DNA of 64,000 nucleotides from contig NZ_JAJNCY010000001.1 in assembly GCF_021026335.1 (NCBI RefSeq), forward strand, positions 124,001-188,000. Direction: 5' to 3'. Positions 38,632 to 48,254 of the stretch are shown one piece after another. The DNA comes from Rhizobium sp. C1. Its GTDB lineage: Bacteria; Pseudomonadota; Alphaproteobacteria; Rhizobiales; Rhizobiaceae. The notes under the pieces are model-generated. The model saw only the letters and a list, made by a program, of their open reading frames with translations. It had not been told where the DNA came from and did no database searches. Positions within the stretch are counted from its first letter, which is position 1; every line of letters begins with the position of its first letter. A program made the translations under genes and the position numbers.

Positions 38632-38943
38632 ATGGCCGAGAACGATGTCGTGCTTGCTCCGCGCGTGAAGACCACGCCGAAGGTCGAGAAGCCGAAGCTC
38701 TACAAGGTGCTGTTGTTCAACGATGATTACACGCCGCGCGAATTTGTCGTGATGGTTCTGAAATATGTCTTCCGCGCCGATAGCTCCTCCGCCGAGAAGA
38801 TCATGCTGACGGCGCATATGAAGGGATCGTCGGTGGTGGCCGTCTATACGAAGGATATTGCCGAGACGAAGGTCAAGGAGGCGATGGATCTGGCCAAGGA
38901 GGCCGGGTTCCCGCTGATGTTCACGGCCGAGCCGGAGGAGTGA
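38632..38943 (+). CDS. clpS: ATP-dependent Clp protease adaptor ClpS (ClpS2-like paralog)
   Basis: A 103-residue N-degron adaptor. The core LLFNDDYTPREFVVMVLKYV (about residues 28-47) contains the ClpA-contacting and N-end-binding Asn-Asp-Asp, and the tail GFPLMFTAEPEE fits the short ClpS2 type of Agrobacterium. CGGAGG precedes ATG 38632. No clpA is adjacent, consistent with a second ClpS; the primary copy normally lies beside clpA. Confidence 0.9.
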   Translation: MAENDVVLAPRVKTTPKVEKPKLYKVLLFNDDYTPREFVVMVLKYVFRADSSSAEKIMLTAHMKGSSVVAVYTKDIAETKVKEAMDLAKEAGFPLMFTAEPEE

Positions 38944-38951
38944 TCCGCTCT

Positions 38952-39668
38952 TCAATCCTTCTTGCCAAACATCCGCTTCAGCATGTCCGCCATGGGGCCG
39001 GTTGCCGGCAGGTCCGGCTTGTGATTGCGGGCCTGGTGGATGTGGGACTGGGCTTTCGGAGCCGTCTGAGCCTTGGGTGCTGACGCGTCCTTCTTCTCGG
39101 CCTTGGTCGGCGGCGGGGCGAGCTTGTTCATGAATTTCGAGCCGTCGCCGTCGAAGAGGAGTTCGGCGTTGAGGGTGATGTCGTCCATCAGTTCATCGAG
39201 CCAGCCTTGGTCGACCTTGGCGAAATCGCCCAGAACATGGTTGTGGACGAGTTCCTTGGCGCCCGGATGGCCAATGCCGAGGCGGAGCCGCTTGTAGTCG
39301 CGGCCGCAATGGGCGTCGATGGACTTCAGGCCGTTATGGCCGCCATGGCCGCCGCCGACCTTGAGCTTCACCTTGCCGGCGGGCAGGTCAAGTTCGTCGT
39401 GGATGGCGATGATGTCGCCGGGGCCGAGCTTGTAGAAGCGCATGGCTTCGCCCACGGCCTCGCCGGAGAGGTTCATGAAGGTCTGAGGCTTCATCAGCAG
39501 AACCTTCTCGCCGGCAATCTCGCCCTCGGAAATTTCGGCCTTGAACTTCTTCGACCATGGGCCGAACGGGTGCTTGCGATGCAGCGCGTCGATCGCCATG
39601 AAACCGATATTGTGGCGGTTGGCCGCGTATTTCGGGCCGGGATTGCCCAGGCCGACGATGATCTTCAT
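38952..39668 (-). CDS. pth: Peptidyl-tRNA hydrolase
   Basis: A 238-residue enzyme that frees tRNA from stalled peptidyl-tRNA. It has [18 protein letters not shown] (residues 6-23, catalytic His), [12 protein letters not shown] (about 63-74), the [10 protein letters not shown] catalytic Asp and [14 protein letters not shown] low-complexity alanine/lysine-rich tail (about residues 185-225) extends beyond the usual 190-residue core, as in other rhizobia. It is normally just downstream of rplY; here about 4.3 kb intervenes. Confidence 0.95.
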
Positions 39669-39757
39669 GGCTTTGATCCGCGCATGTGACAAGGATGGCG
39701 TTGTGAAATGCGAAACGGTCGCCCGTGTCAAGCGTCTCTCGGGTGGGTCGGCGGCAA

Positions 39758-40543
39758 TCAGCGCAGAAGCCCACCTTCCACGAAATTATAACGCTGGAAT
39801 ATGCCCGACCGGGTCCCGTCCGCGATCAGTTTTTTCAGACTGCTGCGCATGCGTCGCAGCGCATCGGCATCGGTCTGCCTGTTGCAGGCCAGAGCGTCGA
39901 GGCTGGTGTTGAGAATGACGGCTGCCTCCACCGGAAGGCCCTGCCTCTGCAGATCGGCCAGCATGGAGGCGGCCATGGGCATCAGGTCAATGCGGCCCGC
40001 GAGCAGTTTCTTGACGCTCAGGTCGATCTCCGACGTGAGGTCGATCCGGGTAAAGCCGTTCTGCTTCAGGAGGTTCTCGGTATAATCGCCGAGCTGAGTC
40101 CCGATGAGGTAACGCTTCGCCTCCTCCAGATTGGCGGGACGGATGCCCGATCCGGACTTGCGGACAAGATAGGCCTCGGTTGTAAACAGCGGCTCCACCC
40201 ACTCGAACAGATCTGCGCGCTCCTTCGTATGGACGGTCGAAAACACGCAAGAGCCTGGCGTGTTGAGAGCGAGGCTATAGGCCCGTGCCCACGGCTGCAG
40301 CGTCATTTCGTATTGCAGGCCGGCATCCGCCATGACCGCTTTCACAAGGTCTACGGCAATGCCTTTCAGCACGCCGTCTTCTTCATAGTTGTAAGGAGGA
40401 TAGTCTTCCGTGAGCAGATGAAGAGATTCGCCTGACGCGGGTAGGGCGGCGGCCGACCAGAGGCCGAACGTTGCCGCCCACATCCATCTGCCGAATGTCG
40501 CGGTTTTCCTCATGCCCCTGCATCTGGGGTGAACGATTGCCAT
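39758..40543 (-). CDS. Secreted solute-binding protein (SBP_bac_3-like), copy 2
   Basis: A 261-residue periplasmic protein with a signal peptide in [19 protein letters not shown]. The mature protein starts with a family-3 pattern, [20 protein letters not shown], and has [14 protein letters not shown] and [11 protein letters not shown]. It shares layout and several motifs with the upstream copy. No ABC permease or ATPase is near, so import is unlikely; it follows a GGDEF-EAL gene and may be a ligand sensor. ATG 40543 has GAGG 7 bases upstream. Confidence 0.82.
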
Positions 40544-40581
40544 TGCGATACCTCACGGGGACGGTGCTTCTGCGTATGCGA

Positions 40582-41367
40582 TCACTGGGACGTCTTTTCA
40601 TCCGAGGCAACGCCATACGTATCGAGAATTCGCCGTTGCGTGCCTTCGGCAATCAAATTGTTCAGCACCTGCTGTAGCCGAAGGATCATAGAGTCCTTCG
40701 TGTTTCGGTTGCAGGCAATCGAATACGTACTTTCAGACAATGTGATCACAGATTCGATGTCTGCGCCATCCCGTTTCAGCTGATCGTAGTATTTTTCTGA
40801 CATCGGCATCAGATCGATCCGCCCGCTCATCAGCTTCTTGAATGTCAGAACGAGGTCTGTCGCCAGATCGACTTTGGGAAATTTGTTCTCTGTCAGCAGA
40901 TCTTCGGTGAAGTCGCCGCGCTGTGTGCCGACTATATAGGATTTTGCTTCATCGAGTGTCTTCGGCGCTGCCTTCGATCCTGTCTTGTGTATGAGGATCG
41001 TTCGGCTTCGCAGCAGCGGCTCCACCCATTTGAAGCGGTGGTCCCGTTCGGGATTGTGGACGGCGGTGAACAGACAGACGCCGTTTCCGGTCTCCGCCTC
41101 CGAGATGGCCCGCGCCCACGGCATGACCTCGATGGAGAAGGGTATGTCGACCTCCTTCATGATCAGCTTGATCTGATCTGCCGAAGCCCCCCTGACTTGA
41201 CCGTTTTCCAGATAATTGAAGGGGGGATAGGTTTCGGTCACGAAGCGGATGTTCTCCGCCCGCGCCAGACCGGCCGCCAGCAGCGAGAGATGCGCGCCAA
41301 GAAGAGCCTTGACGAGGCCGTGGCGCAGGACGTGACGTGCAAGCGAAGCTGCTGTGGTGTCTGGCAT
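40582..41367 (-). CDS. Secreted solute-binding protein (SBP_bac_3-like), copy 1
   Basis: A 261-residue periplasmic protein with a signal peptide (ALLGAHLSLLAAGLARA). The mature part has FVTETYPPFNYLENGQVRG, YIVGTQRGDFTEDLL and [10 protein letters not shown], paralogous to copy 2. It begins 6 bases after the stop of the GGDEF-EAL gene, with no strong ribosome site, so translation is probably coupled. Such amino-acid-binding-fold proteins can act as receptors for membrane signalling proteins; the ligand is unknown. Confidence 0.82.
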   Translation of the reverse strand: MPDTTAASLARHVLRHGLVKALLGAHLSLLAAGLARAENIRFVTETYPPFNYLENGQVRGASADQIKLIMKEVDIPFSIEVMPWARAISEAETGNGVCLFTAVHNPERDHRFKWVEPLLRSRTILIHKTGSKAAPKTLDEAKSYIVGTQRGDFTEDLLTENKFPKVDLATDLVLTFKKLMSGRIDLMPMSEKYYDQLKRDGADIESVITLSESTYSIACNRNTKDSMILRLQQVLNNLIAEGTQRRILDTYGVASDEKTSQ

Positions 41368-41373
41368 AGAGTG

Positions 41374-43803
41374 TCAGACGAGCTCGGCCAGCCGTTCGCC
41401 GGTCGGATTGTAAAGCTGCTCGATATCATCGATGCTCAACGGACGGGAGAAGAGGTATCCCTGGCCGTACTGAATACCCATGTCCTTCAAAATTTCCCGC
41501 TGGCTGGGGGTCTCGATCCCTTCCGCCACGACCTTGCATTTCAGATGCTGGGCTATGGTGTTGATCCCCTGGACGAGAAGGTAGGGCTTGTCGCGTTCAA
41601 CGGCGCTGTCGGGGTGAAGAGCCGCGACGAAGGAACGGTCGACCTTGACGATGTTGACCGGGAACCTGTGGAGGTAGCTCAGCGAGGAATAGCCGGTTCC
41701 GAAATCGTCGAGCGCGATGGACATGCCGCAGTCGCGCAGACCGCGCAGCACCATGTTGATCTCGGGGTTGTTGCGCATCAGCACGGCTTCGGTGATCTCC
41801 AGCGCGATGCGCGCGGGCTGGACGCCCGATTTCATCAGAATATCCGACATGCGCGCCAGAAGGTCGGCATTCAGCTGCAGAGGAGAGAAATTGATCGACA
41901 TGCAGGCCGCTTCGAGACCCGGAATCCGGCTGATCCGGGTCAGATAGTCGACGGCCTTCTTCAGGATCACGTTGCCGATGGCTTCAATCGTGCCGTTTTC
42001 CTCGGCAACGGCAATGATCTTTGCCGGCGGGAGGATCCCGTGCGCGGGATGACGCAGACGCATCAGCGCTTCGAAATTCGTCGGCTGGCCGGTCTTGAGG
42101 TCGCAGATCGGCTGAAGCCAGGCGTCGAACCAGTCGTTTTCCAGCGCCTCGTTGATGTAGCGCTCCAGTTCCGCGCGCTCACGGGCGGTATCCGCGATGG
42201 AATCGTTGAAGACTTCCGTGCCGTTCTTGCCGTTGCGCTTGCGCGCATACATGGCCAGGTCGGACTTTTGCAGCAGTTCCGCAGCGCAGGTTGCATGGTG
42301 CGGGTAAAGCGCGATGCCGATGCTGGCGCTCAGTGTCACGCTGGCCCCGTCCGGCGTGAAGGGGGCGGCAAAGGTCGCCTTGATACGTTCCGAAATACCC
42401 CGGGCGATTGCTTCCGCCTCCGGTGCTGAAATGAGAATTGCGAACTCGTCTCCGCCGAGACGGGCGATGATATCGGTCGGGCGCAATTGCTGGCTGGCGC
42501 GGCTGACGACTTCTTTCAGCACCTCGTCGCCGGCTGCGTGTCCCATGTTGTCGTTGATCCACTTGAAGCGGTCGAGATCGACGAAGAGACAGGCGACTTC
42601 ATGGCCGCGCTTGTCCGCATCCATAATCTTGCCGTCGAGAGCGGCCTCGAAGCCCTGCCGGTTCAGAAGACCGGTCAGATGGTCGGTGATGGCCTGGAGA
42701 TGGTTGCGCGTCTCGGCTTCCTTCAGCTCCGTCACGTCGGTCATGACGCAGAGTACGCTGGTGGGGCCGGTGGTTTCTCCCATCGGTGTTTCACGGATCA
42801 GAACGTCGATGATGCGGCCATCGGCGCACTGGAACTTGACGGTGGCGCCATTGGGCTCGGAGGAGGGCGCATGGCCGATTTTGCTAGATATGTCCCATGT
42901 CGCGCCGCGTGCGAGGAACTCGGTGAAGTGCCGTCCCGTGACCTCCTCGCGGGAGTAGCCGGTGGCAAACATCCAATAGTCGGAGACGGCTGCGATGCGG
43001 CCGTCAGCATCAATCATGTAAAGCATGGCGGGGGTTTTGTTGTAGACCGCCTGAACCATGGCATGCGCCGCTTTCAGCGCGCTTTCCTCATGCGCCAGTT
43101 CGCTCTGCATTTCGTTGAAGTTTTCGGCCAGAAGGCCCATCTCGTCGCGGGAATGCCAGTTGACGCGCTGGCGATAGCCGCTGCGGCGCGTGCTGATCAC
43201 GGCGTCCGTAAGGCGCAGGAGCGGGCGGATGACGATGACGCGATTTGCGATGACGGCCGCCAGAAAGACGATGGCGACCGCGAAGACGAAGATGAACATG
43301 AAATTGATGTCGCGGCTGCCGATCGTCGACATCAGGCCGCCATTGTCCACCTCGATCTCGAGCGTGCCGACATATTTGTCGCCGTCCACGGACGGGTAGT
43401 AGATCGGCGTCGAGATGCGGCGCGGTTCCACATCGTGTTTCGTGCCCGTGGTCGAGATGCTGATGGCGATGGAGCCGGAGCTGTCGCGGACATGGACCGC
43501 CTCGATCTCGTTGCCGGCCGCAATGGCAGCGGCGACCTTTCTGGCGCTGTCGATATCGAAATCCCACAGCGGCTTACCGAGCGCCTGTGCGTTGGTGGAG
43601 ATCGTCAGGTCGATCCGCTCTCTGCGTTCGGTCAGCGTCCGTTCGGCGGACAGGTAGAAAAACAACCCGAAGAGCGGGATCACGAAAGCGAATACCGCGG
43701 AACAAATGATCAAAAGGAATCGCTTTTCCACGGAGTGAGTATGCATAAGCTTCCGTTTCGCGCGCGGTAGGACTTGGCTTCGATGAAGCAGGTAATCTTG
43801 CAT
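41374..43803 (-). CDS. Membrane GGDEF-EAL protein (diguanylate cyclase / c-di-GMP phosphodiesterase)
   Basis: An 809-residue protein. A membrane helix (about 28-48), a periplasmic region of about 120 residues, a second helix, a HAMP region, and a PAS domain (about 255-370) lead to GGDEF (about 385-545) and EAL (about 555-800). The cyclase motif LGGDEF is intact, with an RPTD inhibition site five residues before it. The EAL side keeps FEALMR, EITEAV and DDFGTGYSS. Both activities look possible. The start could also be ATG 43746. It heads an operon with two solute-binding proteins. Confidence 0.9.
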   Translation of the reverse strand: MQDYLLHRSQVLPRAKRKLMHTHSVEKRFLLIICSAVFAFVIPLFGLFFYLSAERTLTERRERIDLTISTNAQALGKPLWDFDIDSARKVAAAIAAGNEIEAVHVRDSSGSIAISISTTGTKHDVEPRRISTPIYYPSVDGDKYVGTLEIEVDNGGLMSTIGSRDINFMFIFVFAVAIVFLAAVIANRVIVIRPLLRLTDAVISTRRSGYRQRVNWHSRDEMGLLAENFNEMQSELAHEESALKAAHAMVQAVYNKTPAMLYMIDADGRIAAVSDYWMFATGYSREEVTGRHFTEFLARGATWDISSKIGHAPSSEPNGATVKFQCADGRIIDVLIRETPMGETTGPTSVLCVMTDVTELKEAETRNHLQAITDHLTGLLNRQGFEAALDGKIMDADKRGHEVACLFVDLDRFKWINDNMGHAAGDEVLKEVVSRASQQLRPTDIIARLGGDEFAILISAPEAEAIARGISERIKATFAAPFTPDGASVTLSASIGIALYPHHATCAAELLQKSDLAMYARKRNGKNGTEVFNDSIADTARERAELERYINEALENDWFDAWLQPICDLKTGQPTNFEALMRLRHPAHGILPPAKIIAVAEENGTIEAIGNVILKKAVDYLTRISRIPGLEAACMSINFSPLQLNADLLARMSDILMKSGVQPARIALEITEAVLMRNNPEINMVLRGLRDCGMSIALDDFGTGYSSLSYLHRFPVNIVKVDRSFVAALHPDSAVERDKPYLLVQGINTIAQHLKCKVVAEGIETPSQREILKDMGIQYGQGYLFSRPLSIDDIEQLYNPTGERLAELV

Positions 43804-43853
43804 GTGAGCCTTAATCGAACTTGAATATCGAGATAACAGTTCTTGCCGATCGT

Positions 43854-43893
43854 AAAAAAACAAAGGCCCGCTCACACAATTGTGGAGCGGGCC
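43854..43893 (-). terminator. Rho-independent terminator of rplY
   Basis: GGCCCGCTC (43865-43873) pairs with GAGCGGGCC (43885-43893), and the loop itself contains CACAATTGTG. On the minus strand a T-rich run (43864-43854) follows. It lies 56 bases after the rplY stop and separates rplY from the GGDEF-EAL operon. Confidence 0.9.
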
Positions 43894-43948
43894 CATGAGT
43901 AGACTGCGTGTCTGATGTCATCCGGACGGCGCTCAGGCCGCCAGGTGA

Positions 43949-44554
43949 TCAGGCTTCAGCTTCGCCGGTTGCTTCTTCGACGCCGGCAGCCGGGGTCGCG
44001 ATCGTAGCGATCGTGAAGTCGCGGTCGGTGATGACGGGCGTGACGCCAGCCGGAAGCTTGATATGCGAGATGTGAACACCTTCGCCGATCTTGAAGCCTT
44101 CGAGGTCAGCCGTGATGAATTCCGGAATAGCGTTCGCCGGGCAGACAAATTCAACTTCGTGACGGACGACGTTCAGCGTGCCGCCGATCTTGAGGCCCGG
44201 GGACTTCTCATGGTTCACGAAGTGAACCGGAACGGCAACCGTGACCTGGGTGTTGCCAGAGACGCGGAGGAAGTCGACATGCATGGTGAAGTCGCGGACC
44301 GGATCGAGCTGGTAGTCCTTCGGGAGAACCGAGATCTTTTCGCCGCCGACGTCGATCGTTGCGATGGTGGTCATGAAACCGCCAGCGTGGATCTTCTTCG
44401 TGACTTCATTGGTCGACAGAGCGATCGAAATCGGGGGCTGCTTGTCGCCATAGATAACTGCAGGGATAAGACCGTTGCGGCGCAGTTCGCGGGAGGACCC
44501 CTTACCAGCCCGATCGCGCTTTTCGGCCTTGAGCTCGTACGAAGCGTGGCTCAT
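43949..44554 (-). CDS. rplY: 50S ribosomal protein L25 / Ctc
   Basis: A 201-residue, long-form (TL5/Ctc-like) L25 that binds 5S rRNA. The N-terminal L25 domain contains [20 protein letters not shown] (residues 7-26) and GLIPAVIYG. The C-terminal beta domain includes [26 protein letters not shown] precedes ATG 44554. The tail is acidic (EEATGEAEA). Its own terminator follows, so the usual link to pth is cut. Confidence 0.95.
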
Positions 44555-44714
44555 GGTATTTCCTTTCAACGTTTGCGGAGAGCCCGCACCCGTTCATCGC
44601 GAACCGATGCGAACTGAAGCTTGTGCCTATTTCGCAGAAAGCCTCATCCGCCTTGCCTCCAAGGGTGTCTAGGCGGACGGCGCTCCTTACTCCAAAGGGT
44701 GCGGGAATGCAAGG

Positions 44715-44734
44715 GCAGGGGAACAAGCCCCTGC
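44715..44734. repeat. 7-bp hairpin between rplY and the GAF-Fis regulator
   Basis: GCAGGGG (44715-44721) and CCCCTGC (44728-44734) form a perfect stem with a 6-base loop. There is no T-run. It could be part of the rplY leader on the minus strand. Confidence 0.35.
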
Positions 44735-44747
44735 TGTCCGGAATGGA

Positions 44748-44761
44748 TTGATCAGGGTCAA
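44748..44761. promoter_or_regulatory. FNR/FixK-type box upstream of the GAF-Fis regulator
   Basis: TTGATCAGGGTCAA fits TTGAY-N4-RTCAA at every defined position. It lies between rplY (start 44554) and the regulator (start 44965), about 200 bases from each. Binding is inferred. Confidence 0.45.
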
Positions 44762-44787
44762 CGCGCAAGTGTCTCAGATGGCGCATT

Positions 44788-44839
44788 CTTGCGACAGTTC
44801 GTAACTCGTATACAAAAGTCGTGATGCATTTGTCGCAAG
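44788..44839. promoter_or_regulatory. Widely spaced 9-bp inverted repeat upstream of the GAF-Fis regulator
   Basis: CTTGCGACA (44788-44796) and TGTCGCAAG (44831-44839) are exact inverted copies with centres 43 bases apart, about four helical turns. They lie 126-177 bases before the regulator start, like paired binding sites of a Fis-type helix-turn-helix activator. Confidence 0.5.
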
Positions 44840-44964
44840 GCCATGTCATTCTGCAGGGCAATTTCGTGAAATCGGCACGAACCTGGCAGGGGCGTTGGAC
44901 ATATCCTTCGATATGTCGAGCAAGGATAACCTGAACGGGAGCTTTGGGAGGAGCTGAGCTGATC

Positions 44965-45906
44965 ATGACCCATCATGCAGAAAAGGTTTATTCGCTGGCG
45001 CGCAAGTCTTCGCAGGCCGCCAGTTCGCCCGTTGCCGCCTCGTGGCTGCGGTGCATGAACGTGCACAAGCTCAGTCCCGACCAGAACCTGTCGCCCGCCC
45101 GGCTCACCGAGCAGGAATTTCGCGATGCGACAGACCGGTCGCGGGTGATGGTCGAAGAGGCGCGCGACGAGCTTGACCGGTTGTTCCTGATGGCGGGCCG
45201 GTCCGGCCATGCGCTGCTGCTGACCGACGGAAACGGCGTCGTGCTCGACCGGCGCGGAACCGCTGGCGACGAGAAGGATTTCCGTGGTGTCGGCCTGTGG
45301 TCGGGAACCGTCTGGAGCGAGGCGAGCGTCGGCACCAACGGCATCGGGACGGCGTTGGCAGATCAGCGCGCGGCCACCGTGAGCCGCGATCAGCACTTCC
45401 TGTCGTCGAACACGGGCCTGAGTTGTACCGCAGCTCCCATTCGCGACCACACGGCACGCATTTCGGGCGTGCTCGATTTCTCGACCTGCCGCGACGATGC
45501 CAATGAACTGACCATGGCCATGCTGTCGCATGCGGTGCGCGATGCGGCGCTCAGGATCGAAGGCAATCTGTTCCGCCGAGCCTTCCCGACGGCGCGTATT
45601 GTCATGGTGGGCAGCGGTTACGGCGCACTCCTGGCGGTCGATCGGGACGATATCGTGCTGGGTGCCACGCGCGGCGCGCGTCAGGCCCTTGGCCTCGACG
45701 ATCACCGTCTGGCCGCCGGCGTTCCGGCAGCTGACCTGCTGGATGAAAGTGAGCCGGCGCGCTCGACCGATCTTCTGGAGGCTGAACGTTCGGCGCTTCG
45801 CCGGGCGATCAACCGCAATGGTGGCAACATGTCGCGCACGGCCGAGGCGCTGGGCATCAGCCGCGCAACGCTGCATCGCAAGGTGAAGCGGCTCGGCCTG
45901 ACCTGA
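44965..45906 (+). CDS. GAF-Fis transcriptional regulator lacking the AAA+ domain (AcoR-like ends)
   Basis: A 313-residue regulator. The N-terminal half matches the AcoR/DhaR sensory region: VAASWLRCMNVHKLSPD (about residues 22-38), a GAF domain with VGLWSGTVWSEASVGTNGIG, and SCTAAPIRDHTARISGVLDF. The C-terminus is a Fis-type helix-turn-helix (ALRRAINRNGGNMSRTAEAL then GISRATLHRKVKRLG). The sigma-54-contacting AAA+ domain that normally lies between is absent, so it should not activate sigma-54 by the usual ATPase mechanism. The ATG at 44965 is chosen over a TTG at 44944. Confidence 0.85.
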   Translation: MTHHAEKVYSLARKSSQAASSPVAASWLRCMNVHKLSPDQNLSPARLTEQEFRDATDRSRVMVEEARDELDRLFLMAGRSGHALLLTDGNGVVLDRRGTAGDEKDFRGVGLWSGTVWSEASVGTNGIGTALADQRAATVSRDQHFLSSNTGLSCTAAPIRDHTARISGVLDFSTCRDDANELTMAMLSHAVRDAALRIEGNLFRRAFPTARIVMVGSGYGALLAVDRDDIVLGATRGARQALGLDDHRLAAGVPAADLLDESEPARSTDLLEAERSALRRAINRNGGNMSRTAEALGISRATLHRKVKRLGLT

Positions 45907-45977: not shown

Positions 45978-46000
45978 AGGCGGCCTTCAGGCCGCCTTTC
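45978..46000 (+). terminator. Terminator of the GAF-Fis regulator, overlapping the chemoreceptor 3' end
   Basis: AGGCGGCC (45978-45985) pairs with GGCCGCCT (45990-45997) around a TTCA loop, then TTTCTGTTCT. The hairpin includes the stop codon and last codons of the convergent chemoreceptor gene. Confidence 0.7.
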
Positions 46001-48254
46001 TGTTCTGCATGCTGTCCGACGTGGTGAAAGCGCTGACCTGGCCGGTGAGAACAGCCGATTCCCGATCAAGCCCGAAGACTGCTGCCGTGGTCTCCTCGAC
46101 CATGGCGGCATTCTGCTGGGTGACGTGATCGAGATCGTTCACCGTGCTGTTGATCTCCTGCAGCCGAACCGACTGATCGCGCGTGGCGGCGACCATCTCG
46201 CCGATATGCTCGTGGATCGTCTTCACGCCGTTTTCGATCATCTTCAGGCTTTCACCCGTCTTCAGAACCAGACTGACGCCGTTCTCGACATCGCTCGCGG
46301 AGGTGGCGATGATGCTGTTGATATCGCGCGCGGCCGCGGCCGATTTCTGCGCCAGCTCGCGCACCTCCTGCGCCACGACGGCGAAGCCCTTTCCGGCCTC
46401 GCCGGCACGCGCGGCCTCAACGCCCGCGTTGAGGGCCAGAAGGTTGGTCTGGAAGGCGATCTGGTCGATGACGTCGATGATCGAGCGGATCTGTGACGAG
46501 GAGGCTTCGATGCGCTCCATGGCTTCGATCGCCTGCTGGACGACGCTGGCGGAGGACAGGCTGTTGTTTAGCGCGGTCGAGGCTTCGCTGTCTGCGGTTT
46601 CGCAGCGGCGGCGGGTGGCGTTGACGGTGTCGGTCATTTCGCTGAGCGCGGCAGCGGCCTCTTCGAGCGAAGAAGCCTGCCGCTCGGTCCGATGGGCGAG
46701 ATCTTCCGACGCGCTCTTCAGGTCGGCCGCGCCTGCCTGGATGCTGTCGGCGCTGGTGCGGATCGCCGTCACGGTCTGCTCGAGACGGGAGACCGATTCG
46801 TTGAAGTCAATGCGCAGCTGATCCAGTTGCGGCACGAAGGGGCGATCGATGCGGATGTCGAGCCGTCCGCCCGACAGGGACTTGAGGGCCGTGGCAAGCG
46901 CGGAGACAGCAGCCTCCAGTTCGGCCGTGCTGCGGGCCTTTTCGGCCTCGCGTTCCTGCCGGTCCCGTTCCGACACGCGGCTTTGTTCGTCGGCGCTGCG
47001 TTCGACGCGCTCCTTGTCGATGGCGCTCTGGCGGAAGGATTCCAGCGCGCGGGCCATGGTGCCCACCTCGTCGCGGCGCTCGGTGTAGCCCACGGTAATG
47101 GTCTTCTCGCCGTCGTTCAGGCGGTTCATCAAGCCGGCCAGCGTGGTCAGCGGGCTGGTCAGGCGCGCGGCGATGACGAGGCCGGCGGTGCCCATGACGG
47201 CAAGAACTGCGAGCGCACAGATGCTCGCCATCAGCGCCAGATTGTTGGCTGCGGCCAGGATTGAAGATTTCGGCTGGCCGGCAACGAGCAGATGCGGCTG
47301 TCCGTCAATGTCAACGGGCTTGTAGGCATAGAACATGCTGCCTTTGACGGTGTCGCCGAAGACCGAGCCAGTCGATCCGCCCTTGGCCGCCTCCGCGAGG
47401 ATTGGCGGCGCCTGTCCGCCCTCCGTCGCTGTCATTTCGCCGGCACGCAGGATACCGTCGCCGGAAAGAAGGAAGGAGTCCTGAACCGCCGCCTCTTCGC
47501 CTTGCGGCTTCAGAAGCGATGTGAATTCGCTCTGGCTCACCTTGATGACGACCACACCCTTGAGGGTCTGCGTACCCCAGACATCCACGGCGAGCGGCTG
47601 GATATAATAGGCTGCGAAGGCGCCATCGACCCCCTTGATGAAGCCGGTCTTGTAGACGTCTGTCATCTTCCCGGCCGCCGCCTTGTCCACGAAGGGCTTG
47701 AGTGCGGCGTTGGCGGGATCGGACATCTTTGACAGGAATTCGGGACCCTTCGTGACCGTGTAGTAGATCACGCCGTCCAGGCCGATGACGAAGATTTCCG
47801 AGACGTGGGCGTTCTTGCGTACCGCGTTAAGGGCGGAATGAATCTTGGCATGGCGGACACCAAAGAGCAGCTTCGTGTCGGAACCGCTGATGCCCGCCCG
47901 CTGCTCGGCACTTGATCCCGCGGGCTGAAAAGCGATCCGGATCTGGTCGTTCTCGCTCGCGATAATGTTGGGAAACACATCCATCACTTCGCCGAGCGCT
48001 GCGTTTGATGAAACCTCACCCAGGGTCTGCAGGGCGCGGGTGTCGAAGGCGCTGATTTCCTTTGCGCGGGCATTGACCACCGACTGCAGACCGAATTTGC
48101 TGGCCTCAATCAGTCCCTCGCTGCCGATCTTGTAGCTGAGCAGGCCGACCGAGGCGCAGGAGGCCAGCGTGGCGCCAATGACAAGTGCTGCAAATTTCGA
48201 CTTGACCGTTCGAAGCCGCAAAAAGCCGGCTCGTGTTCCTGCTCCACCCATCAC
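45987..48254 (-). CDS. Methyl-accepting chemotaxis protein with periplasmic Cache-type sensor
   Basis: A 755-residue chemoreceptor. A membrane helix at about 18-40, a large periplasmic domain (about 45-340, Cache-like), a second helix (about 342-368), HAMP segments, and a signalling domain (about 500-740) are visible. The hairpin tip contains NLLALNAGVEAARAGEAGKG and FAVVAQEVRELAQKSAAAAR. It signals to CheA/CheW. No C-terminal CheR-binding pentapeptide is seen (ends QNRKAA). The ligand is unknown. Confidence 0.92.
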   Translation of the reverse strand: MMGGAGTRAGFLRLRTVKSKFAALVIGATLASCASVGLLSYKIGSEGLIEASKFGLQSVVNARAKEISAFDTRALQTLGEVSSNAALGEVMDVFPNIIASENDQIRIAFQPAGSSAEQRAGISGSDTKLLFGVRHAKIHSALNAVRKNAHVSEIFVIGLDGVIYYTVTKGPEFLSKMSDPANAALKPFVDKAAAGKMTDVYKTGFIKGVDGAFAAYYIQPLAVDVWGTQTLKGVVVIKVSQSEFTSLLKPQGEEAAVQDSFLLSGDGILRAGEMTATEGGQAPPILAEAAKGGSTGSVFGDTVKGSMFYAYKPVDIDGQPHLLVAGQPKSSILAAANNLALMASICALAVLAVMGTAGLVIAARLTSPLTTLAGLMNRLNDGEKTITVGYTERRDEVGTMARALESFRQSAIDKERVERSADEQSRVSERDRQEREAEKARSTAELEAAVSALATALKSLSGGRLDIRIDRPFVPQLDQLRIDFNESVSRLEQTVTAIRTSADSIQAGAADLKSASEDLAHRTERQASSLEEAAAALSEMTDTVNATRRRCETADSEASTALNNSLSSASVVQQAIEAMERIEASSSQIRSIIDVIDQIAFQTNLLALNAGVEAARAGEAGKGFAVVAQEVRELAQKSAAAARDINSIIATSASDVENGVSLVLKTGESLKMIENGVKTIHEHIGEMVAATRDQSVRLQEINSTVNDLDHVTQQNAAMVEETTAAVFGLDRESAVLTGQVSAFTTSDSMQNRKAA

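Follow-up and report, generated by a model that had tools for sequence, protein, structure and literature searches.

Several solute-binding proteins (SBPs) dock on membrane receptors, as in ChvE-VirA, TorT-TorS, LuxPQ and Trg, where the chemoreceptor Trg serves two SBPs; these receptors have kinase or chemotaxis outputs and draw on SBP families other than the one considered here. ArtI is an SBP of the importer type. Stimulation of enzymes of cyclic di-GMP (c-di-GMP) by SBPs is also established (PMC9602780, PMC8846402; these and all other reports are cited from the available portions of their text). In NspS-MbaA of Vibrio cholerae, and in smc00991-smc00992 of Sinorhizobium meliloti, a soluble periplasmic SBP and a membrane GGDEF-EAL protein share one operon, and signalling runs through the SBP without depending on import (PMC8079147, PMC9993111), with the norspermidine-bound SBP favouring synthesis (PMC8079147). 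PruR-DcpA and PruR-DTB systems of Agrobacterium tumefaciens and other Proteobacteria pair a periplasmic ligand-binding protein with a GGDEF-EAL or histidine kinase receptor, a modular arrangement like the one considered here, and ligand-bound PruR shifts DcpA towards breakdown (PMC13259868). In ArtI-STM1987 of Salmonella and RmcA of Pseudomonas aeruginosa, an arginine-binding SBP or a fused SBP_bac_3 domain feeds c-di-GMP enzymes (PMC8846402). Here we describe an operon of Rhizobium sp. C1 lying in a window of 64,000 nucleotides (assembly GCF_021026335.1, contig NZ_JAJNCY010000001.1, positions 124,001 to 188,000), in which the gene of a membrane GGDEF-EAL protein, GE, is followed by the genes of two SBP_bac_3 proteins, SBP1 and SBP2. 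We propose, with a probability of about 0.84, that its products form a two-part periplasmic receptor that controls c-di-GMP, and that the SBPs feed no importer.

The kind of mechanism is known from NspS-MbaA, PruR-DcpA and ArtI-STM1987, and what is new is the SBP family, the sensor family and the tandem second SBP. NspS is homologous to PotD, whereas the window SBPs match SBP_bac_3 only; nspS lies upstream of mbaA, whereas the SBP lies downstream of GE in the window and in all 80 of the best loci from named genomes (see below); the periplasmic part of S. meliloti MbaA spans residues 24-256, compared with about 110 residues in GE; and in the own genus of the window there are two SBPs. PruR has a SUOX fold and binds pterins, unlike the SBP_bac_3 partner of GE, and the periplasmic region of DcpA, about 190 aa long against the 110 residues or so of GE, carries a WX7E motif that GE does not share: position W+8 is R in the window and E in 28 of 59 aligned relatives, while a looser pattern, allowed at any point within residues 1-150, is present in 33 of 59. 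STM1987 carries a dCACHE_1 domain; in RmcA the SBP domain is fused, unlike the separate SBPs beside GE.

The operon occupies the minus strand at 39758-43746 in the order GE, SBP1, SBP2, and open reading frames (ORFs) and Pfam place it between rplY and pth, with gaps of 6 bases between GE and SBP1 and 38 bases between SBP1 and SBP2. A preliminary description of the window, made from its letters, had reported a GGDEF-EAL membrane protein followed after 6 bases by two binding proteins on this strand, and ORFs and Pfam agree with it, but the coordinates it gave for the finding, 40543-41374, cover SBP1 only. It was also right in calling the second binding protein a family-3 paralogue of the first, as both match SBP_bac_3 above the cut-off and no other Pfam family, at 40-41% identity to each other; a search of the own genome with SBP1 returned these two proteins as the sole matches at E ≤ 0.001. 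Both open with a leader-like hydrophobic stretch (judged by eye), which in SBP1 is modelled by AlphaFold2 as a helix at residues 6-33, and the SBP1 model (pLDDT 90.5) has amino-acid binding proteins as its nearest folds. In GE, the HAMP, PAS, GGDEF and EAL domains all pass the Pfam cut-offs, and the window protein carries GGDEF, RxxD (RPTD), EAL and DDFGTG motifs. Intact GGDEF, RxxD and EAL motifs had been noted before, and the GGDEF, EAL and DDFGTG patterns recur in 74 of 74 GE relatives, but the RxxD inhibitory site is matched by pattern in only 18 of 74 and is therefore no conserved feature.

The locus shows two of the features expected of SBP-activated c-di-GMP receptors: a membrane protein with a periplasmic domain and intact GGDEF and EAL, and a soluble periplasmic binding protein conserved with it, importer genes not being adjacent. 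In the mechanism that we suggest, SBP1 and SBP2 would be exported as soluble binding proteins, and an SBP, ligand-loaded (or empty), would dock on GE at its small PAS/Cache-like periplasmic domain; the signal would then pass from the second transmembrane segment (TM2) to HAMP and PAS, shifting the balance between synthesis by GGDEF and breakdown by EAL. Gene order, domains, conserved adjacency, swapped outputs and the lack of an adjacent permease are observed, whereas the docking step, the binding of a ligand and the way in which the output moves are inferred.

The pairing is strongly conserved. The family was sampled in 199 genomes, own included, with strong cut-offs of E ≤ 3.8e-47 for the SBP and E ≤ 1.2e-35 for the GE sensor (query: residues 1-243 of the longer GE reading). 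SBP matches were found in 38 genomes at 44 places, 43 strong and one weak (G196, 2.7e-12), and GE-sensor matches in 42 genomes at 44 places, 41 strong and three weak (G085, G083, G004). An SBP gene lies directly downstream at 39 of the 41 strong sensor places, and all 43 strong SBP places fall within those 39 loci. GE adjoins the SBP in each of the 38 loci retrieved around strong SBP matches of other family genomes (in L036 GE is split into two ORFs), the window being the 39th locus; 37 of these 39 are bracketed by rplY and pth, leaving no space for a permease, and the remaining two were checked for a permease by eye. A scan of named genomes, queried with nine close SBPs, gave at least 556 confirmed relatives, and in the best 80 loci, which were kept, GE lies upstream of the SBP on the same strand every time (its frame is interrupted in L147, giving several ORFs). 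pth is present in 76 of these loci and rplY too in 75 (L114 is cut by the contig), while L106, L108, L110 and L107 lack both. Because the named loci were chosen by their SBP, they say nothing on GE without SBP, and because they overlap the family draw (at least L104, L105 and L126 probably correspond to G014, G117 and G175) the two samples are not independent. The pair also occurs as a unit away from rplY-pth, in L035 and L036, which are second copies in genomes G045 and G138, and in L106, L108 and L110, as well as in L107 on a 5-kb contig. The median distance from the GE stop to the mature SBP is 84 bases (83 SBP genes, four second SBPs included), approximately the length of a signal peptide. 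The earlier idea of a GE-SBP partnership in signalling rather than import, for which a search of rhizobial genomes for conserved adjacency had been proposed, thus appears well supported by that adjacency (39/41, 43/43 and 80/80).

SBP homologues regularly found beside permeases had been named as evidence that would speak against the partnership; none of the 43 strong family matches has such a neighbour (judged by eye at the two loci not bracketed by rplY and pth), all of them lying in GE loci. Of the ten SBP_bac_3 genes in the own genome, seven have a PF00528 permease no more than about 1.1 kb away; the exceptions are SBP1, SBP2 and C2:148107. No PF00528 permease occurs within the operon, which rplY and pth bracket, the nearest listed match on the same contig being about 71 kb away, in line with the preliminary statement that no permease is nearby (ATPases were not searched for). 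Because of this control and the synteny, a dedicated importer for SBP1 and SBP2 appears strongly disfavoured. SBP1 and SBP2 could instead be orphan subunits of amino-acid ATP-binding cassette (ABC) importers encoded elsewhere, their adjacency to GE being accidental or a matter of co-regulation only. Solved relatives in SBP_bac_3 are mostly importer subunits, the 89 PF00528 places of the genome offer many permeases for a lone SBP to share, and PMC9602780 predicts amino acids for the family in general; yet 43 of 43 strong SBP matches adjoin GE, in other families the SBP adjoins receptors of differing outputs, and the weak G196 match, which does have a permease-like neighbour (PF00528 E 0.0014, below the cut-off), falls outside the clade. 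We therefore regard orphan importer subunits as quite improbable. The third permease-free SBP_bac_3 gene (G000:C2:148107-148787, locus L184) has no PF00528 permease listed on its contig.

Outside the family, the association was followed with an SBP profile, A1 (30 of 41 SBP stretches plus two from the window), and a sensor profile, A2 (29 of 41 plus one). A draw of 297 genomes of the order gave 18 extra-family sensor places, all of which were retrieved, and 15 of them adjoin a periplasmic binding protein. At nine this is an SBP detectable with A1 (L078, L079, L080, L081, L083, L085, L086, L092, L093), the matches of L092 (6e-15) and L093 (2e-10) being weak and both SBP_bac_3 by Pfam; at four it is a more distant SBP_bac_3 (L094, L096, L098, L099), L094 and L096 coming from one genus with SBPs that score alike; and at two it is a Peripla_BP_4 protein (L097, L100). 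The output joined to the sensor varies among the 18 places, with GGDEF-EAL in 11, a histidine kinase in three (L078, of histidine kinase-response regulator type and with an SBP; L101 and L102, without one) and a class III nucleotide cyclase (Guanylate_cyc) in two, L086 and L093, both SBP-linked, while two are cut off (L079, L092). Conversely, 13 extra-family SBP places reach E ≤ 1.3e-30, seven of which adjoin the sensor and one, L077, a chemoreceptor; at the weaker match L091 a GGDEF protein lies two genes from the SBP. A draw of 240 genomes of the class, where 13 and 14 genomes, own included, gave matches to the two profiles, provided nine SBP and six sensor loci, for which A1 and A2 were run on all ORFs and Pfam on some neighbours. 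Here an SBP_bac_3 protein adjoins a kinase carrying the same sensor at L196 and an SBP relative adjoins a chemoreceptor at L185, and the other five sensor and eight SBP loci showed no such partner, with few neighbours Pfam-scanned. SBP and sensor are thus strongly associated within the family and clearly so within the order, but the link fades at wider range.

Several observations weigh against the proposed two-part receptor. The preliminary description had also named a GE gene conserved without SBPs as contrary evidence, and this is found at two of the 41 strong family places (G092 and G161), but the other 39 have an SBP. In the order, three of the 18 sensor places (L095, L101, L102) have no recognised SBP, and five of the 13 SBP places (L076, L082, L084, L087, L088) no recognised receptor; no PF00528 permease was seen among the nine neighbour proteins scanned at these five, where L087 ends near the contig end. 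Among the order SBP matches weaker than E 1.3e-30, five of 13 were retrieved (L089, L090, L091, L092, L103), and only L092 adjoins the sensor. In the class draw an SBP was recognised beside one of six sensor loci, and in all four other genomes that hold both profiles these lie at least 32 kb apart or on different contigs. The EGIE pattern of the EAL domain is present in 50 of 74 GE relatives. Finally, in a mirror-tree comparison of 74 of the 80 loci (six were dropped, one of four genes being missing or not a single ORF), SBP distances track the whole of GE and not its periplasmic part in particular: the partial r is 0.29 for the periplasmic part given the cytoplasmic part and flanks (0 of 2000 permutations as high) and 0.51 for the cytoplasmic given the periplasmic part, with control values of 0.30 (rplY) and -0.09 (pth). 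As the signal follows the whole of GE, it gives no sign of interface co-evolution, and co-evolution of the SBP specifically with the periplasmic part was not supported.

The SBP-less GE genes (L072 6249-8627, L071 7866-10268) sit at rplY-pth with no room for an SBP and offer natural tests of GE alone.

For the periplasmic part of GE, an AlphaFold2 model of the N-terminal 224 residues (pLDDT 78.8, pTM 0.51) was matched by Foldseek/VIA to WalK (WalK-YycH model 9a5d), the LapD orthologue 4u64 and Cache domains; with a pTM of 0.51 these fold matches are therefore leads only. WalK domains of such shape bind other extracytoplasmic proteins. The LapD domain of such shape is described, in the text available, as binding the extracytoplasmic protein LapG. 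As the sensor is modelled as a separate PAS/Cache-like domain, the earlier picture of an unfused solute-binding-domain cyclase stands as an analogy only. The same resemblance bears on the possibility that GE is governed mainly through its cytoplasmic PAS, or that the sensor binds a small ligand directly, the SBPs being accessory. GE does possess a PAS domain, Cache/PAS domains of the modelled kind bind ligands directly, and two genomes retain GE without an SBP, yet 15 of the 18 extra-family sensor places adjoin binding-protein genes, of several kinds and with several outputs, which would not be expected of accessory SBPs; we consider this explanation unlikely. Two candidates were discarded: the PDB match 7ejg_C ('EAL domain-containing protein'), and a DcpA-type assignment of the sensor, profile A2 having matched nothing in six Oxidored_molyb loci.

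The binding site of the SBPs was compared across 66 family members (alignment A4: 64 of 85 stretches plus two from the window; the corresponding sensor alignment A5 holds 58 of 79 plus one). All 66 share T44, E45, Y47, W84, R86, R108 and D152, SBP1 and SBP2 among them, and the alignment suggests that they face the cleft; a profile alignment to AncQR and others shows R108 to be the Arg of the TxxR motif, retained throughout. The Asp position of the 'D-N/E' motif, by contrast, is Ser in 55 of 66, Asp in five, Ala in four and Thr in two. We take this acidic position to hold the amino group of amino acids in LAO and GlnBP, and because of these presumed roles we infer that the site may not grip its ligand as it would a plain alpha-amino acid. 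This runs counter to the survey PMC9602780, which predicts amino acids as SBP_bac_3 ligands in general. The Ser substitution would also fit SBPs that have lost ligand binding and regulate GE constitutively as proteins, holding it either back or active, but the seven invariant residues suggest a binding site retained for another ligand, which makes a role of the SBPs without ligand binding very improbable.

A single SBP is the rule and a tandem second SBP the exception, seen in the own genus and three further named loci. The second SBP is present in 4 of 4 own-genus genomes drawn (the window, L032, L033 and L034) and in five of the best 80 named loci, L131, L141, L147, L104 and L105, the last two probably being the same records as G014 and G117; all other named loci carry one SBP. 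Within the genus both SBPs are under purifying selection, with dN of 0.09-0.24 and dS of 0.9-1.7, giving a dN/dS of about 0.1-0.2 that is only rough because dS is near saturation. In a quick tree, own-genus SBP2 branches outside the family's single SBPs and the second SBPs of L131 and L141 fall elsewhere; approximately unbiased (AU) tests on 61 rows, some rows having been left out, do not reject a grouping of all second SBPs in one clade (p 0.38), nor such a grouping of the own-genus SBPs (p 0.56), so that the trees would be compatible with one or several duplications. Since the SBP gene is doubled in the own genus, one receptor probably answers to two SBPs there. More speculatively, and with the odds somewhat against it, SBP1 and SBP2 in the own genus might each recognise a ligand of its own and either compete for the one periplasmic domain of GE or occupy it together, so that a single c-di-GMP enzyme would compute on two outside chemicals, for example one SBP favouring synthesis and the other breakdown; the sensor would then serve as a general docking module for SBPs, linked to outputs of the c-di-GMP, kinase and class III cyclase kinds.

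Literature searches, with most subscription journals outside their coverage, found no published description of the GE-SBP pair, and the available text of a survey of c-di-GMP genes across alphaproteobacterial orders (PMC9756655) does not mention it. The pair occupies the fixed rplY-pth place in many Rhizobium, Neorhizobium, Sinorhizobium/Ensifer, Ciceribacter and Agrobacterium/Allorhizobium vitis-group genomes. The conserved operon points to a two-part sensor of an outside molecule rather than an uptake system; if this is true, a periplasmic ligand controls c-di-GMP in a large plant-associated group, and with it probably attachment and motility, and binding-protein gating of c-di-GMP enzymes has been reached via another SBP family and another sensor domain. 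With a small soluble protein as the binder, there is a direct route to the ligand.

Table 1. Features of the GE-SBP1-SBP2 locus (window coordinates)
Feature	Position	Strand	Basis
GE: membrane GGDEF-EAL receptor (TM1 - periplasmic domain of ~110 residues - TM2 - HAMP - PAS - GGDEF - EAL)	41374..43746	-	Pfam, homologue-based start, AlphaFold2
Periplasmic sensor region of GE (approximate bounds)	43303..43647	-	AlphaFold2 secondary structure, Foldseek/VIA matches, alignments A2 and A5
HAMP of GE (residues 191-236 of the 809-aa reading)	43096..43233	-	Pfam
Cytoplasmic PAS of GE	42727..43023	-	Pfam
GGDEF of GE	42223..42693	-	Pfam, E 4.5e-42
EAL of GE	41440..42156	-	Pfam, E 6e-62
SBP1: secreted SBP_bac_3 protein	40582..41367	-	Pfam, AlphaFold2, closest folds amino-acid SBPs
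SBP2: second SBP_bac_3 protein, SBP1 paralogue	39758..40543	-	Pfam, ORFs, identity
rplY (ribosomal L25): upstream flank, conserved synteny, outside receptor	43949..44569	-	Pfam Ribosomal_L25p
pth (peptidyl-tRNA hydrolase): downstream flank, conserved synteny, outside receptor	38952..39731	-	Pfam Pept_tRNA_hydro
Intrinsic terminator after rplY, hairpin and U tract	43852..43897	-	-26.6 kcal/mol, z -6.4

The longest GE frame runs over 41374-43896, but the start is likely the ATG at 43746, because aligned homologues start near M-x-HSVE and GGAAG stands directly 5' (by eye); the true start of pth is probably near 39668. As a terminator separates rplY from GE, the operon is its own unit on the rplY side; this terminator is absent from the listing of a simple terminator scan, and a promoter scan of 38800-45000 found none. 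Elsewhere in the window, at 45987-48254 on the minus strand, lies a chemoreceptor with HAMP and MCPsignal and a dCache_1-like region below the cut-off.

Binding-protein genes are clustered at two further loci. In L190 (5805-9087; from the class genome G518, which is small and incomplete), three such SBPs of 252, 254 and 270 aa stand in tandem on one strand. In L088 (6146-12683; G234, another family of the order), four binding-protein families lie side by side, namely SBP_bac_8 with a peptidoglycan-binding domain, an A1-type SBP, NMT1_3 and Peripla_BP_6 (with a weak channel-like membrane match below the cut-off), with no transporter among the neighbours scanned. The own genome also contains an operon that looks like a pterin receptor operon of the PruR-DTB type (L200 2845-6943, contig C2 at about 38.8-42.9 kb): a weak Oxidored_molyb (PruR-like) ORF lies directly upstream of a HisKA-HATPase-receiver-Hpt kinase, followed next by a receiver-like ORF (by eye).

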